Shown here one piece after another: positions 3,583-26,934 of a DNA stretch of 27,809 nt. The DNA comes from a virus. The translations under genes were made by a program, and so were the position numbers. The notes below the pieces were generated by a model. That model was given only the letters and a program-made list of their open reading frames with translations. It was not told where the DNA came from and made no database searches. The first letter of the stretch is position 1. Every line of letters begins with the position of its first letter. The stretch is taken from IMG/VR virus record IMGVR_UViG_3300048434_000194, positions 1 through 27,809 of that record; one strand, given 5' to 3'.

Positions 3583-4784
3583 TAGCCGAGGCTGCTGAAG
3601 GCAAAAATACACACTTGGAACACATTGAGGATCTAGTATTTCTTCAAGGCAAGTCTGGTGCGCAGAGTGCGCTACAGTATATTAACAGTGTGCGTGACAT
3701 GCTGGAGAATGGCGGCGACAGTGGTAACATAACTGTTAAGTGGGATGGTGCTCCTGCTATATTTGCTGGCACTGATCCAAGTGATGGTAAGTTTTTTGTT
3801 GGTACTAAAGGTGTGTTTAGCAAAACCGGCAAACTTGTAAAAAGTACTGCAGACCTTGACAAGTATGGCTATGAAGGCGGCATTCGTGAAAAACTTGCAC
3901 AGGCACTTAAACTGCTATCTGGACTGGGTATACAAGGTGTGCTACAAGGCGACATGATGTATACCAAAAGTGATTTAGAAACTGCTGACATTGATGGCGA
4001 AGAGAGTTGGGTGTTCCAACCCAACACTATTGCTTATGCTGTTCCTAAAAACAGTGAACTAGGCAAGCGTATTGCCGCAAGTCAAATGGGTATTATATTT
4101 CACACAACCTACACAGGTGATAGTGTGCCAGAAATGACTGCAAGTTTTGGTGCAGATGTAAATGAACTAAACAAGACCAGCGCAGTATGGTTTGATGATG
4201 CAACCTACAAAGACCTAAGTGGACAAGCAAGTCTAGCACAGCAAGAGAATAAACAAATACTACAAGGGCTAAATGCTGCAGCCAGCGCACTTAAAACTGC
4301 AGACTTTACAGCAGTTAGCGGCGACTATAAAGCACTGCTTATGCAGTATGTAAATGCAAGAATTAAACGTGGCGATACACAAATAGATGATGCAAAGAGT
4401 TTTGCGCAAGACTTTACACAGTGGTACAATGATTACATACAAAAAGAGATTGCAAAACTAAAGAATCAAGACCCAGCAGCACCTGCAGTAAAGAATCGCA
4501 CAGATAAAATTGATGCACAGAACAAATTTATTACTGACAACATGACAGGTATTGCCAGTGCGCTTGCAGTGTACAAAGACATTATTGCATTAAAAAATAT
4601 GCTTATAAATAAATTGAATAAAGTAGACAGTATTAAGTCACTTATCCGCACAGACACAGGCTACGAAGTAACAAACCCAGAAGGATTTGTTGCTATTGGC
4701 ACAGACAGTGGTGCAGTTAAACTAGTGGACCGCATGGAGTTTAGTAAAAACAACTTCAGTGCTGTTAAGAACTGGAGCAAGTAA
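3564..4784 (+). CDS. Putative covalent nucleotidyltransferase (ligase-like) with capsid-targeting-like leader
   Basis: The 406-residue protein belongs to a family common in T4-like marine phages and usually left as a DUF. KWDGAP (K59-W-D-G62) looks like motif I of ATP-dependent ligases and capping enzymes, where the lysine is adenylated. Then come FFVGTKGVFSK (78-88), VLQGDMMY (126-133) and near the C-terminus PEGFVAI (E373-G374) and GAVKLVDR (K386), resembling motifs IV and V of that fold. The first residues MRFREIVAEA resemble the T4 capsid-targeting sequence (MKTYQEFIAEA), whose cleavage by the head protease follows a V/I-x-E pattern. If both readings hold, this is a ligase-like enzyme packaged in the head. 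The enzyme assignment is inference from short motifs. It ends with TAATG overlap onto the next gene. Confidence 0.7.
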   Translation: MRFREIVAEAAEGKNTHLEHIEDLVFLQGKSGAQSALQYINSVRDMLENGGDSGNITVKWDGAPAIFAGTDPSDGKFFVGTKGVFSKTGKLVKSTADLDKYGYEGGIREKLAQALKLLSGLGIQGVLQGDMMYTKSDLETADIDGEESWVFQPNTIAYAVPKNSELGKRIAASQMGIIFHTTYTGDSVPEMTASFGADVNELNKTSAVWFDDATYKDLSGQASLAQQENKQILQGLNAAASALKTADFTAVSGDYKALLMQYVNARIKRGDTQIDDAKSFAQDFTQWYNDYIQKEIAKLKNQDPAAPAVKNRTDKIDAQNKFITDNMTGIASALAVYKDIIALKNMLINKLNKVDSIKSLIRTDTGYEVTNPEGFVAIGTDSGAVKLVDRMEFSKNNFSAVKNWSK

Positions 4785-5704
4785 TGAGAGCAAAAGAATT
4801 TATCAGTGAGGATCACCAGAAATTAGATGAGGCAATATTTCTTCCACTTCTCATGGGCGCCGGTGTAGTGTGGCAAGGTGTTGAAACATACAATGACATT
4901 CAAGATTATAAAAGTGGAAAAATAGATGGAGCGGAACTTAGTAAACGCATTGGTACTGATGCTGCAGCCGCAGTTGTGGGCGGCGCGATTGGTAAAGGCC
5001 TATCAGTTGGCTGGAGCGCAATTAAGAGTGCTATGAAATTTAAAGGTGCTGGTAAAGAAGCATTGGACACTACAAAAGACGCAATTAAACAAGCAGACAA
5101 AGCACCAAAACCAGGCAGTGTTGTTAAAACCGCAGACGGCAAGAAGGCCATAGCAGGTGTTGACGGCAAGCCTACTACAGTAAAGCCTGGCGATAAAAAA
5201 GCAATTGCAAATATTAAAAAAGCAGCAAAAGATCCAAAGAATAAAAAAACCGCTGGCAAAACTGGTGCAGCCGCTGGTGCAGTTGCTAAGAAAGGTGACG
5301 ATGCCGCAAAAGCCGGTGCTACGGCTGCTTCAATGGGCAGCAAGGCTAAGAAGTTAATTCCAGGTAAGGCAGTTAGACGTGGTGCTATAGCAGGTGCACT
5401 AGCAAATCAAGCAAATGATGCTATAGGATCAGGCTCAATAGGCGACAAATTTGATAGCATAGTAGATAAAATAAAAAAAGGTACAGGCACTGCAGGTGAT
5501 GTGGGCGATGGCGTTGTATACTTTGGTAAAGAAAAGAATCCACCAATTAAAAAAGTACAAGGTGTCAATGATCCATTGTATAAAAAACCAAAAACTATAA
5601 ACACTAAAACCATGGATAGCAATAGTCCAGTACCAACTGCAAAAGATCCCAAGTTACCAAAACAAAACACTACTAGTCTATCAACGCAGCAAGGTGTAAA
5701 ATAA
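4784..5704 (+). CDS. Lys/Ala-rich putative internal head protein
   Basis: The 306-residue protein begins MRAKEFISED, close to the T4 capsid-targeting leader with an I-S-E site. Residues about 18-85 are hydrophobic/Gly-Ala-rich (LPLLMGAGVVW, AAAAVVGGAIGKGL) and could contact or cross a membrane. Residues about 95-220 are low-complexity Lys/Ala/Gly/Pro, like histone H1 tails, rich in AIANIKKAAKDPKNKK-type stretches. The tail is Pro/Thr/Ser-rich. The composition suits DNA binding or neutralisation inside the capsid, or a protein delivered with the DNA. Gene overlaps of one base on each side place it in a unit with the nucleotidyltransferase-like gene. No enzyme motif is seen. Confidence 0.7.
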   Translation: MRAKEFISEDHQKLDEAIFLPLLMGAGVVWQGVETYNDIQDYKSGKIDGAELSKRIGTDAAAAVVGGAIGKGLSVGWSAIKSAMKFKGAGKEALDTTKDAIKQADKAPKPGSVVKTADGKKAIAGVDGKPTTVKPGDKKAIANIKKAAKDPKNKKTAGKTGAAAGAVAKKGDDAAKAGATAASMGSKAKKLIPGKAVRRGAIAGALANQANDAIGSGSIGDKFDSIVDKIKKGTGTAGDVGDGVVYFGKEKNPPIKKVQGVNDPLYKKPKTINTKTMDSNSPVPTAKDPKLPKQNTTSLSTQQGVK

Positions 5705-23177: not shown

Positions 23178-23255
23178 ATGACTGATGAAGAAAAACTTAA
23201 ACAAGGTTTTAATGGAAGCACTTACAGTATTAATGGCAGGGATGTAGACTTTTAA
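23178..23255 (+). CDS. Possible small protein, 25 residues
   Basis: A short reading frame (MTDEEKLKQGFNGSTYSING, then RDVDF) begins five bases after the previous stop and overlaps the end of the convergent gene by four bases. The composition is like a real soluble peptide, but there is no strong ribosome binding site. I include it at low confidence. Confidence 0.35.
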   Translation: MTDEEKLKQGFNGSTYSINGRDVDF

Positions 23256-23677
23256 TTAATATTGCACCAATAACCATCTTCAGGTCCACTGCATCCTCTA
23301 ATTAGTAATTCTAACATTACGTCAAAGTCTTCAGCAATACCAATACTAATACCTGTTAACATCATAAGCAATAGTATAATAAACGGACTAGGCAGTATTA
23401 AAAACCAATAGGTACGAAATATCCCATGTCCATGCTCTAATCTGTATGCACGTTTGCGTTGAAAGTAATGTATTATACCTTTAACGCCAGCCTTAATTTT
23501 ATCAACAACCCATTCGCCTATAAAATAACGCACAGTCCTTACAACTATAAGCACAGGACTTGCAATAACATCATAGAATAACAATGCAACATCAACAAGT
23601 AAATCAACTACATGATCCACTGTCCACCAGTCTTTAAACTTTTGAATGCGTTGTTTTGTAACAGTTAATATATCCAT
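23252..23677 (-). CDS. Membrane protein of unknown function
   Basis: 141 residues from the minus-strand ATG at 23677, starting MDILTVTKQRIQKFKDWW; the longer frame upstream lies in the promoter region. It has two hydrophobic regions (about DLLVDVALLFYDVIASPVLIV and YWFLILPSPFIILLLMMLTG), with a basic cytoplasmic-type loop AYRLEHGHGIFR between. A C-terminal RGCSGPEDGYWCNIN holds two cysteines. It is divergent from the ExbB-like gene and shares the palindromic promoter at 23685, so it is likely expressed with it. The minus-strand late box ends seven bases before the ATG. Confidence 0.65.
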   Translation of the reverse strand: MDILTVTKQRIQKFKDWWTVDHVVDLLVDVALLFYDVIASPVLIVVRTVRYFIGEWVVDKIKAGVKGIIHYFQRKRAYRLEHGHGIFRTYWFLILPSPFIILLLMMLTGISIGIAEDFDVMLELLIRGCSGPEDGYWCNIN

Positions 23678-23684
23678 AGTAGTA

Positions 23685-23703
23685 GTATTTACCTGATAAA
23701 TAC
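23685..23703. promoter_or_regulatory. Divergent late-promoter palindrome
   Basis: GTATTTA-CCTGA-TAAATAC, the same 7-base arms and 5-base spacing as at 3278-3296. One half points to the membrane gene on the minus strand, the other to the ExbB-like gene at 23721. Confidence 0.7.
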
Positions 23704-23720
23704 ATTGTTCGGAGCACAAC

Positions 23721-24170
23721 ATGAGTATGTTTTTAAGATGGTGGCTGCTATTCTGCACTAGTTGTGCAGCAATGTTTGCAGCCTATAGTTTTGGTTTTAT
23801 AGATGCATTACTTGCAAAAGATATCACACGACTAAGTTTTGCAATACTGGGTGTATTCTTTTTATCAAGCATGTATGTGGGCTGGCTGACTTATAAAAGA
23901 AATAAAGGCGCCACGGTTAAAGTAGGTGTAAACATAGGTTGGTTTATTACTGAACTACTGCTTGCATTGGGTATGATCGGGACAGTGATTGGATTTATTC
24001 TAATGCTGGGCGGCAGTTTTGAAAGTTTAAACATATCTGACACAGGCAGTGTTAAAACTGCACTCACAGACATGGCGATAGGAATGAGTACTGCGCTGTA
24101 TACTACACTGGTAGGAATGGTATGTAGCCAAATACTTAAGGTGCAGTTGGTCAATGTCGAATCTAGATAA
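23721..24170 (+). CDS. Compact ExbB/TolQ/MotA-like proton channel protein
   Basis: The 149-residue protein has four predicted membrane helices (about 8-26, 36-57, 71-98, 114-139). The third and fourth carry the MotA/TolQ/ExbB signature: LALGMIGTVIGFILMLGGSF (GTV 87-89) and TDMAIGMSTALYTTLVGMV (T128-T129). Host ExbB is about 240 residues, so this is a shortened form lacking long cytoplasmic loops. It probably forms a proton-driven stator ring with the next protein, as ExbB does with ExbD. The GGAG ribosome site follows the divergent late promoter. The end overlaps the next gene by 17 bases. Confidence 0.82.
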   Translation: MSMFLRWWLLFCTSCAAMFAAYSFGFIDALLAKDITRLSFAILGVFFLSSMYVGWLTYKRNKGATVKVGVNIGWFITELLLALGMIGTVIGFILMLGGSFESLNISDTGSVKTALTDMAIGMSTALYTTLVGMVCSQILKVQLVNVESR

Positions 24171-24819
24171 CAAACTAAAATACAAAAGCAGTATAGGCTT
24201 TACAGACTTGCTATTCAATCTTGTGATTGGATTTGTATACTTATTTGTGATTGCGTTTATTCTTATCAACCCTGTTGCTAAAAAAGGCGATGTAATTAAA
24301 AAAGCAGAATACATTATTACAATTGAATGGAATCATGAATACAATGATGACATTGATTTATGGATCAAAGATCCAGCAGGTAATGTTGTAAGTTTTTTGC
24401 GCAAAAGCCAGGGCTTGATGCACTTAGAAAAAGATGATTTAGGTTATAGCAATGATGTTTATGTTAAAGGCAAAAAACAAGAGATAATCCATCTTAACAG
24501 AGAAGTAATTACACTAAGAGGCACAATACCAGGCGAATATGAGGTAATGGTTCATGTGTATAGTAGAAAGTTTACCATGGTAGATGGCACTGCCCGCCAG
24601 GATTTGCCAGGTATTATAGAAGCAAGTGTAATTAAGATTAATCCTTATGTGGAAACATATTTTACTAGAGTGCCCTACAATGAAACAGGACAAACACTGA
24701 GTGTAGTTCGTTTTAGTGTAGCAGATGAACATGCATACCTAGGACATAATAATAACCCAAGTGACTTTATTACTAAAAAAGGAACCAGTGGGCTAGGAAG
24801 GTATAACCAGTATAGATAA
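24154..24819 (+). CDS. ExbD/TolR-like membrane protein with periplasmic beta domain
   Basis: The 221-residue protein has one N-terminal membrane helix, with GFTDLLFNLVIGFVYLFVIA, where D18 sits like the proton-carrying Asp of ExbD (FIDVMLVLL). After the helix is EYIITIEWNHEYNDDIDLWI and DPAGNVVSF (65-80), resembling DUF2135-like beta sandwiches, then IPGEYEVMVHVYSRKF, a further beta strand pair. ExbD and TolR have a different periplasmic fold, so this seems a new fusion or convergent construct. The gene is coupled upstream (17-base overlap) and downstream (TAATG). It could convert a proton gradient into envelope work. Confidence 0.72.
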   Translation: MSNLDNKLKYKSSIGFTDLLFNLVIGFVYLFVIAFILINPVAKKGDVIKKAEYIITIEWNHEYNDDIDLWIKDPAGNVVSFLRKSQGLMHLEKDDLGYSNDVYVKGKKQEIIHLNREVITLRGTIPGEYEVMVHVYSRKFTMVDGTARQDLPGIIEASVIKINPYVETYFTRVPYNETGQTLSVVRFSVADEHAYLGHNNNPSDFITKKGTSGLGRYNQYR

Positions 24820-25280
24820 TGTTTGATTTTAATTTACTTCCTTTTTTTGCAAGCATGCTGGTACTAACATTAATTGTACTTGGTATAGGTGTGCATTTTT
24901 ATCGCAATGCACTTGTTATGTTTGTAGTAATTCCTGTTGCACTTTTTTGTGCATTTAGTGGGTATAACACTATTACTACTATGCTGGGCTATCCTGTAAA
25001 GCATAGTATACCTGAAGATAGCATGTATCTTAACCATATTGAAAACGGTGACGGTTCAGAACTTTATGTATGGGTGCTAGAACCCGAGCGTATGATGCCA
25101 AAGAACTACAGCATTCCTGCAACAGATAAAAATAAAAAACAAATGCAACGTGCTAAGGGTCGTACTGAAAAAGGTATTAACCAACAAATAGGCAAATACA
25201 AAAGCGAGCGCAGGGGCGAAGCGAACGACGGCGAATACAGGGTCTATGACTTTAGTATAGATCCACAAGGATTAAAATAA
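24819..25280 (+). CDS. Membrane protein, third member of the ExbB/ExbD-like set
   Basis: The 153-residue protein has two N-terminal helices (about 8-26 and 31-49), then a soluble region with HIENGDGSELYVWVLEPERM and a basic part KNKKQMQRAKGRTEKGINQQ. I do not recognise the family. It starts on the last base of the previous gene's stop (TAATG), which ties it to the ExbB/ExbD-like pair. The orientation of the soluble part is unknown, and the role is inferred only from linkage. Confidence 0.65.
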   Translation: MFDFNLLPFFASMLVLTLIVLGIGVHFYRNALVMFVVIPVALFCAFSGYNTITTMLGYPVKHSIPEDSMYLNHIENGDGSELYVWVLEPERMMPKNYSIPATDKNKKQMQRAKGRTEKGINQQIGKYKSERRGEANDGEYRVYDFSIDPQGLK

Positions 25281-25367: not shown

Positions 25368-25856
25368 ATGCCAACATTTGTATACATGACCGCCTGTGAT
25401 GGATGTGGACATTGCGTTGATATTTGTCCAAGTGACATCATGCACATTGATCCAGTAACAAGAAGAGCAGTAAACATAGAACCAAACTTTTGTTGGGAGT
25501 GCTACAGTTGTGTAAAAGCATGTCCACAAAATGCAATTGATGATCGTGGGTACAGTGACTTTGCGCCCATGAACCACAAGGTCAGAGTATTACGGGAACC
25601 AGAAAAAGGCGTTATCAGTTGGCGGCTTAAATTTAGAGACGGCAGAGAAAAACACTTTGAAAGTCCTATCCGTACGACACCTTGGGACAGTATCAAATGT
25701 GCAAGTGAGTATGACATGCCCGAAGCGGGACTAAACGATACACAGCAACTAGCACATGAACCAGAATACTTACTAGCAGATGGCGGGTTGCGCATGATTA
25801 GTAAAAATAAGTTTGTTAAATACGAGTACACAGGAGATAAACATGGCACCGCGTAA
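25368..25856 (+). CDS. aprB: Adenylylsulfate (APS) reductase beta subunit-like ferredoxin
   Basis: The 162-residue protein starts MPTFVYMTACDGCGHCVDIC, the hallmark opening of AprB, followed by PSDIMHID, RRAVNIEPN and CWECYSCVKACPQNAID. All eight Cys ligands for two [4Fe-4S] clusters are present (C10, C13, C16, C20 and C42, C45, C48, C52), as is W43 between them, seen in known AprB. The tail and length match family members (about 150-160 residues). AprB passes electrons to the flavin of AprA, but no aprA lies in the window, so it may join host AprA or serve the oxygenase next to it. A strong AAAGGAG and sigma70 promoter precede it. It overlaps the next gene by 14 bases. Confidence 0.9.
   Translation: MPTFVYMTACDGCGHCVDICPSDIMHIDPVTRRAVNIEPNFCWECYSCVKACPQNAIDDRGYSDFAPMNHKVRVLREPEKGVISWRLKFRDGREKHFESPIRTTPWDSIKCASEYDMPEAGLNDTQQLAHEPEYLLADGGLRMISKNKFVKYEYTGDKHGTA
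25815..25823 (+). promoter_or_regulatory. Late-promoter-like box (GTTAAATAC) within aprB
   Basis: A late-type box near the 3' end of aprB, 19 bases before the ATG of the oxygenase gene, with AGGAGA between. It could allow separate late expression of the oxygenase gene. Confidence 0.4.
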
Positions 25857-26934
25857 TCATAAAAATTGGACAGCAAAACCTAAAGTAGAACACATCAGCA
25901 GTGATGCTTACAACAGTTTCTATCTATATGAACAGGAACAAGAACTGATCTTTAGTAAAGTTTGGGTGCCCATGTGTCACATCAGTGAGATGTATAACCA
26001 AGGTGACTTTCGCACAAGTCAGATTGCAGGACAGCGTGTGGTTGCATGGAACACAGGTTCTGGCGTAAAAGCATACCTTGGAGATAATATTACGAGTGTA
26101 GCAGGCAACATGGCCAGCAACGAAGCCACTGGCAAAGAACTACACTGTGAAGTTTACCATGGTGGTATGGTATGGGTAACACTAAATGAAAATCCAGATT
26201 GCAGTGTAGACGAGTGGACAGCAGGCGCATTTGATTGTATTGCAGAAGCGATAGACACAGAAGAAATGGAAGTATTCCATTATCACAAAGCAGTTATAGA
26301 TACAAATTATAAATTGTGGCATGACACAAACAGTGAATTCTACCATGATTTTATGCATTATTTTAATAGAGTGAGTGGATTTAATGACGAATATTTCGCT
26401 AGAAAAAATATTCCTTTTGATAACGGTCATGTTAACGTTAGTAGTTTTACTGTTAATTACGAAGAGTATGACGGATTTGAAGATCGCGGGGAACTATCTT
26501 TTCCCAATCTGCCGCCCAACCAGTGGTACATGGTTGACCTATTCCCAGGATTCAATTTTAACCTCCGTGGGAGTGCATATCGTAGTGACTCAGTGACACC
26601 ACTTGGACCAAACAAAGTTTTAATCGAGTTCCGTGGTTACGGACTACGCAAAGACACACCAGAGGAAAGACAAACACGCATAAAGCATCACAATAGTATA
26701 TGGGGACCTTTCGGCAGAAACTTGCACGAAGACCTTATTGGTGTTGCTGGTCAAGGTACTACAATGCGTGAGGGTACAGAATCAAGGAATATACTGCACG
26801 GCAGACATGAAAATTCGACAATACACGACGAAGTTGGCATGCGTCACTACTATGCAGAGTGGGGCAACTTCCTAGGAGTTGATCCTGCAAATCCACTACA
26901 AGGACAACTTCAAGATGTTAGTAAGGCTGCGTAA
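25843..26934 (+). CDS. Ring-hydroxylating-oxygenase alpha-like protein lacking Rieske ligands
   Basis: 363 residues from the ATG at 25843, chosen for AGGAGA just upstream. The start IFSKVWVPMCHISEM and RVVAWNTGSGVKAYLGDN resemble the Rieske oxygenase alpha N-terminus, but the CxH and CxxH cluster motifs are missing; only CEVYHGGMVWVTL (102-114) remains, with Cys-x3-His spacing. The catalytic part has NYKLWHDTNSEFYHDFMHYF, where H168 and H172 suit the iron site, and NLHEDLIG gives D297 as third ligand. Family members keep H-x4-H, so the site is altered by one residue. If active it may take electrons from AprB or another donor. Substrate unknown. Likely co-transcribed with aprB. Confidence 0.75.
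   Translation: MAPRNHKNWTAKPKVEHISSDAYNSFYLYEQEQELIFSKVWVPMCHISEMYNQGDFRTSQIAGQRVVAWNTGSGVKAYLGDNITSVAGNMASNEATGKELHCEVYHGGMVWVTLNENPDCSVDEWTAGAFDCIAEAIDTEEMEVFHYHKAVIDTNYKLWHDTNSEFYHDFMHYFNRVSGFNDEYFARKNIPFDNGHVNVSSFTVNYEEYDGFEDRGELSFPNLPPNQWYMVDLFPGFNFNLRGSAYRSDSVTPLGPNKVLIEFRGYGLRKDTPEERQTRIKHHNSIWGPFGRNLHEDLIGVAGQGTTMREGTESRNILHGRHENSTIHDEVGMRHYYAEWGNFLGVDPANPLQGQLQDVSKAA

Follow-up and report, generated by a model that had tools for sequence, protein, structure and literature searches.

Genetic organization of the locus

The IMG/VR virus record IMGVR_UViG_3300048434_000194 is a linear fragment of 27,809 bases, and the whole of it, referred to below as the window, was analyzed. Phage markers elsewhere in the window comprise DUF6267, a virion structural protein, and a tail-spike-like protein, together with an exonuclease, a ribonucleotide reductase, and part of the DNA polymerase III alpha subunit. 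Positions 23721–25280 of the plus strand hold three overlapping genes, which we name B, D, and C in their 5'-to-3' order, and the features of the locus are as follows:

23685–23703, both strands: palindrome with T4-type late promoter; GATAAATA lies at 23695–23702 on the plus strand, with a mirror copy toward the minus-strand gene
23721–24170, plus strand: B, 149 aa, a compact stator ring subunit of the MotA/TolQ/ExbB class
24154–24819, plus strand: D, 221 aa, an ExbD/MotB-type axle protein
24819–25280, plus strand: C, 153 aa, a third subunit with two predicted membrane helices and a small predicted beta domain
23252–23677, minus strand: divergent membrane protein, 141 aa from an internal ATG, a neighbor only and outside the module

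The overlap is 17 nt between B and D and 1 nt (TAATG) between D and C. The original prediction, made from the sequence of the window, had described three coupled plus-strand genes and one divergent minus-strand reading frame, all of which lie where it placed them; it had also counted the divergent gene as a member of the module, and this part has to be abandoned. That gene is found beside the trio only in the closest relatives (L002, L003, L004, L006, L008, L010, L011, and L026), and its confinement to these eight rules out its product as a fourth component. The divergent protein has no match in Pfam or PHROG, the PHROG collection is of no help in naming B, D, or C, and neither D nor C reaches the cut-off of any Pfam family.

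The palindrome (GTATTTA-CCTGA-TAAATAC) contains GATAAATA, which begins 26 nt before the start codon of B, and it offers the same promoter element to the opposite strand. In T4-like phages, this element is the late promoter. The late promoter motif lies 23–31 nt before B in most of the close relatives, and of 73 viral loci, 33 have NATAAATA in the 120 nt that precede B, whereas random stretches of that length drawn from these loci contain it in 2.5% of cases; the late promoter palindrome proposed earlier is thereby confirmed, and on the strength of this enriched T4-type element the late expression of the trio appears well supported.

The trio is followed in the window by a gene for a phage AprB-like protein (25368–25856; APS-reductase_C, PF12139, E 2.2e-22), in which both 4Fe-4S cysteine sets are present; its counterparts in L002 and L006 are 90–94% identical to it, and a search of six viral records turned up no aprA. 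Directly 3' of this aprB lies a gene for a Rieske/ring-hydroxylating dioxygenase alpha subunit (25843–26934). A Rieske dioxygenase gene adjoins the trio in L002, L006, L010, L011, L025, and L026, where aprB is sometimes missing.

Conservation and viral contexts of the trio

Viral contigs were searched with B alone, which returned 79 loci at 34–96% identity, and with a D profile, which returned 366 relatives from one short motif; the locus counts given here refer to distinct D sequences, namely 107 viral and 45 cellular. B, D, and C stand close together on one strand and in the same order in 103 of the 107 viral and 42 of the 45 cellular loci, so the expectation that the genes would be retained together is borne out. 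The remaining loci, some of which are at contig ends, lack one recognized gene, and only two related loci, L103 and L107, clearly carry B and D with no C adjoining. The dN/dS values against close relatives (B, 0.04–0.17; D, 0.10–0.18; C, 0.04–0.14), with many dS near saturation, indicate that all three genes are under strong purifying selection. Recurrence in more than 100 distinct loci, combined with this selection, makes the trio more than a product of chance: B-D-C is a real cassette.

The surroundings of the cassette are very varied, and include T4-like head-tail clusters, contigs of 316–379 kb, and the genomes of cultured Rhizobium phages. In one group of viral loci the trio sits among T4-like neck, sheath, and terminase genes, in the 316–379 kb contigs it lies amid unrelated genes, and in the Rhizobium phages it is found near gyrase, late-sigma, and replication genes. 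The cultured Rhizobium phages RL2RES, RHph_I1_9, RHph_N3_13, and RHph_I1_18 have intact trios annotated as hypothetical, and in phage RHph_TM3_3_14B, which carries a homing endonuclease between B and D, all three genes persist. On a set of T4-like contigs (L034–L040, L043, L047–L049, L052–L055, L058, and L059), the trio comes after neck/tail-completion genes and before the terminase small subunit; a gene of up to 2740 aa with a tail-fiber-like start comes next.

Molecular features of the three subunits

B scores 31.1 bits (E 2.2e-7) in the MotA_ExbB family PF01618, above the cut-off of 22.9, a threshold that is exceeded in eight of the eight viral records searched, and in hhalign it aligns with Escherichia coli ExbB at E 5.3e-5. 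The ExbB/TolQ-like nature that the original prediction had given to the protein starting at 23721 thus stands, its likeness to ExbB being answered at the level of sequence. The B family profile also finds the MotA/PomA structures 8gqy (E 0.0018) and 8brd (E 0.037), and B places the system in the MotA/TolQ/ExbB class. Charge and hydropathy suggest four helices with both ends cytoplasmic. The viral proteins have a median length of 150 aa, and the cellular ones, in the loci read, span 156–280 aa. Conserved polar residues are found in the GT and TT motifs of the two inner helices, with T88 (23982–23984, in GMIGTVIGF) present in 104 of 106 viral B proteins and T129 (24105–24107, in TTLVG) in 106 of 106; T88 falls inside one of the viral search patterns, and T129 lies outside them.

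D is modeled by AlphaFold (mean pLDDT 85.5) with one long membrane helix at residues 4–38, and its periplasmic part is predicted to be a beta-sandwich at residues 50–207 (24301–24774), with charge and hydropathy suggesting a cytoplasmic N-terminus. The helix contains Asp18 (24205–24207), which had been singled out in advance as the critical residue, and which is indeed conserved in all readable viral homologues (106 of 106) and all cellular ones (45 of 45). This residue lies outside the motif used in the viral-contig search for D, and one of the two genome-scan patterns covered it; since both D18 and T129 are outside the viral search motifs, their viral counts are not an artifact of the search. 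The D profile matches MotB weakly (E 0.011) with D18 aligned to MotB D32, and it is through this axle Asp that D resembles the partners of known stators. An ExbD/TolR periplasmic domain was looked for without success (no Pfam ExbD match; hhalign E 0.18 for ExbD and 0.2 for TolR), and D matched none of the PADLOC, Pfam, or NCBIfam models.

The beta domain shows two kinds of resemblance. By sequence, D aligns with the DUF2135 protein YfaP of E. coli (hhalign E 1.3e-6, probability 90.6, columns 53–145), so the DUF2135-like domain proposed earlier holds in profile-profile comparison; hmmscan gave no match to DUF2135 itself (PF09906). By fold, the D model resembles TerD-type structures (3ibz, Z 10.8 over 135 residues; 2qng, 9.3; 2qz7, 9.0; 2kxt, 8.4), with two chains not named TerD also scoring high (9a6r, Z 9.7; 7jtk, Z 9.2) and all others at 6.4 or below. 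Membership of the TerD family by sequence is ruled out by the profile (no hmmscan match to PF02342; hhalign E 0.12–0.17, probability below 1%), and the agreement is one of fold alone. The domain as modeled is DUF2135-like in sequence and TerD-like in fold, and its earlier description as novel is accordingly only partly right. Residues D18, W59, D66, D68, D94, D95, G97, and E117 of D are invariant or nearly so; since the title of 2kxt speaks of calcium binding, the conservation of D66, D68, D94, D95, and E117 makes a putative calcium site in this acidic cluster plausible.

C was foreseen as a two-helix protein and is modeled as one, with helices at residues 4–26 and 31–56 followed by a small beta domain (AlphaFold, mean pLDDT 77.4); G57 is invariant, and P59, G119, and G133 are nearly so. 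Under the positive-inside rule, positive loops lie on the cytoplasmic side of the membrane, and the loop between the two helices of C is positive, which would place the beta domain in the periplasm. The weak barrel matches of the model (eIF5A, Z 7.0) are not interpretable as to fold identity. C may be dispensable, given that L103 and L107 carry B and D without an adjoining C.

Cellular trios and probable exchange between phages and bacteria

A scan of bacterial genomes with a tight D alignment gave fifteen bacterial loci. D was found at E 1e-10 or better in 37 of 289 alphaproteobacterial genomes, and in 1 of 198 genomes of the phylum to which the Desulfobacterales locus belongs, namely the genome from which the query came. 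The trio is thus carried by alphaproteobacteria, Azospirillum among them, and by scattered other bacteria, with neighbors that vary between lineages. Several of these trios are plainly chromosomal, with non-phage surroundings that include lipoprotein genes and, in one setting, ABC/beta-propeller genes on one side and sufBCDS on the other; they rule out a phage-only origin, and the idea of a purely phage invention falls with it. In a quick tree, about seven changes of the virus label are needed, at least two of them forced by well-supported branches, and it is therefore probable that the trio genes have crossed between phages and cells on more than one occasion.

The chromosomal copies bear on two of the roles that might be considered. 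A late ion-conducting stator could collapse or redirect the proton gradient and so help to open the envelope, and both the late promoter motif before B and the membrane proteins with their predicted periplasmic domains agree with such a lysis or release device. We nevertheless regard it as very improbable, because no lysozyme, holin, or spanin recurs as a neighbor in the contexts examined, the trios of Rhizobium phages sit near gyrase, sigma, and replication genes, and bacteria keep the trio in their chromosomes. The motor might instead energize the acquisition of a nutrient, metal, or cofactor, and be carried by phages as an auxiliary metabolic cassette. In several alphaproteobacteria, PQQ alcohol dehydrogenase genes do adjoin chromosomal trios, confirmed by Pfam PQQ in L191, L221, L227, L228, and L229 and read by eye in L161, L202, L223, L225, and L231, so that a link to quinoprotein metabolism is possible, and the trio of the window adjoins the AprB and Rieske dioxygenase genes. 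These last neighbors are limited to close relatives, however, and no TonB, TonB-dependent receptor, or substrate-binding protein recurs in the phage loci read, and we consider a booster of uptake or metabolism unlikely.

Several further features of the cellular loci were recorded. Cytochromes c also adjoin the trio in the alphaproteobacterial loci with PQQ-dependent alcohol/methanol dehydrogenases. The gene immediately after C encodes a lipoprotein with a YFP(L/F)...W.Y motif in L215, L216, L217, L218, L219, L224, L226, and L232, with three YFP(L/F) lipoprotein genes standing in tandem in L218, and in Azospirillum brasilense (L233) a cell-wall amidase-like gene (4585–5382) is found about 2 kb upstream of the C gene of the trio. 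The trio is also present in CPR-type Harrisonbacteria and Yanofskybacteria and in another bacterium (L162, L163, and L165). CPR bacteria are generally thought to be without an outer membrane, and a job at the outer membrane therefore cannot be general.

Comparison with known stator systems

Bacteria use related proton-driven membrane motors to drive their flagella and to take up nutrients. The known stators consist of a ring protein around a partner with one helix that bears a conserved Asp (PMC9389320). The trio shares with MotA-MotB and PomA-PomB the match of the B profile to MotA and PomA structures, the four predicted helices with cytoplasmic ends, and, in D, an Asp at the start of a single helix; it differs from them in that B is without the large cytoplasmic domain of MotA, the domain of D is DUF2135/TerD-like rather than OmpA-like, a further subunit C is present, and no flagellar genes are nearby. 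The gene order of ExbB-ExbD(-TonB) and TolQ-TolR(-TolA), with a ring subunit first, an axle that bears an Asp next, and a further membrane protein last, is also that of the trio, and B itself is ExbB-like. However, D is without an ExbD/TolR domain, and C has two helices and no Pfam match to TonB or TolA; membership of the Ton or Tol systems is ruled out on the axle domain and the partners. As for the proteins that the axle domain resembles, E. coli YfaP has no stator partner beside it, and TerD proteins are without a membrane helix.

The Zorya systems, whose ZorA5B2 is a 5:2 complex (PMC11890865), raise the question of a defensive role, in which the motor would sense the envelope damage caused by an incoming phage, as ZorAB does, and block its entry or growth. 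The membrane core of B scores against the ZorA models, which give the best score among the PADLOC defense models (E 8.5e-7), the cassette behaves as an accessory in unrelated contexts, and the late promoter motif precedes B. In contrast to ZorA, however, whose profiles span 420–1063 positions, B with its 149 aa has no long cytoplasmic tail; D is without the peptidoglycan-binding domain of ZorB, having a predicted beta-sandwich instead; and neither D nor C matches a PADLOC model. These absences rule out membership of Zorya, from which the trio also differs in being carried by phages. Moreover, no effector resembling ZorC, ZorD, or ZorE is consistently adjacent in the loci, the chromosomal copies of the trio lie amid housekeeping and metabolic genes, and superinfection exclusion or inter-phage defense is, in our judgment, distinctly unlikely as the purpose of the trio. 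The trio falls outside Zorya, Ton, and Tol alike.

We know of no phages that encode their own ion-driven stators, and none are described in the literature that was found. Likewise, no description of this trio was found in the open-access literature on phage ExbB/ExbD, TolQ, TerD and stators, DUF2135/YfaP, and Zorya, which is weak evidence of its novelty.

A proposed model of the motor and its use by phages

Taken as a whole, we consider it probable, if short of firm, that B, D, and C make up a small ion-driven machine belonging to an undescribed clade of proton-driven stators of the 5:2 class, which drives a periplasmic domain and which phages make late in infection for use on the envelope of the host. 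The proton-channel-like module of ExbB/ExbD type put forward in the original prediction survives in the family of B, in D18, and in the retention of the genes as a unit; its four-gene layout does not. We infer a 5:2 assembly with ion flow through B and D. Five B subunits would form a ring in the inner membrane, with two D helices as an axle inside it, and ions would pass by binding Asp18, whereby the axle would turn or rock against the ring. In place of a peptidoglycan-binding or Ton/Tol-type domain, the axle would carry the DUF2135/TerD-like beta-sandwich, the acidic cluster of which is perhaps a calcium site. C would sit beside the motor and add a second periplasmic domain, probably as a partner or a brake.

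The system occurs in cells as well as in viruses, and phages carry the form with the shortened B as a transferable cassette. Late in infection, the trio would most likely keep an energized envelope process working or redirect it, be it stability, uptake, or exclusion. Late timing and mobility among phages fit envelope maintenance, exclusion, or release, and the chromosomal PQQ neighborhood fits a role in periplasmic metabolism; as to purpose, we infer, and give most weight to, a general motor of the envelope that is employed late in infection. More tentatively, as a possibility that we would not yet favor, the trio may belong to a lineage of rotary ion-driven envelope motors that stands apart and has so far escaped description, its axle bearing a calcium-binding DUF2135/TerD-like domain and its third subunit being dedicated to it; this lineage would reside in bacteria and have been repeatedly exchanged with T4-like and jumbo phages, which would assemble a proton-driven motor of their own in the envelope of the host at a late stage of infection.

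The system is open to experiment, with cultured Rhizobium phages that have intact trios and Azospirillum that has cellular relatives. Should the trio function in the way proposed, it would constitute a new branch in the small family of biological rotary motors, a recurring and unannotated gene set of the virome, of which one short motif found 366 relatives, would gain a function, and phages would be seen to invest in energizing the envelope of their host late in infection.
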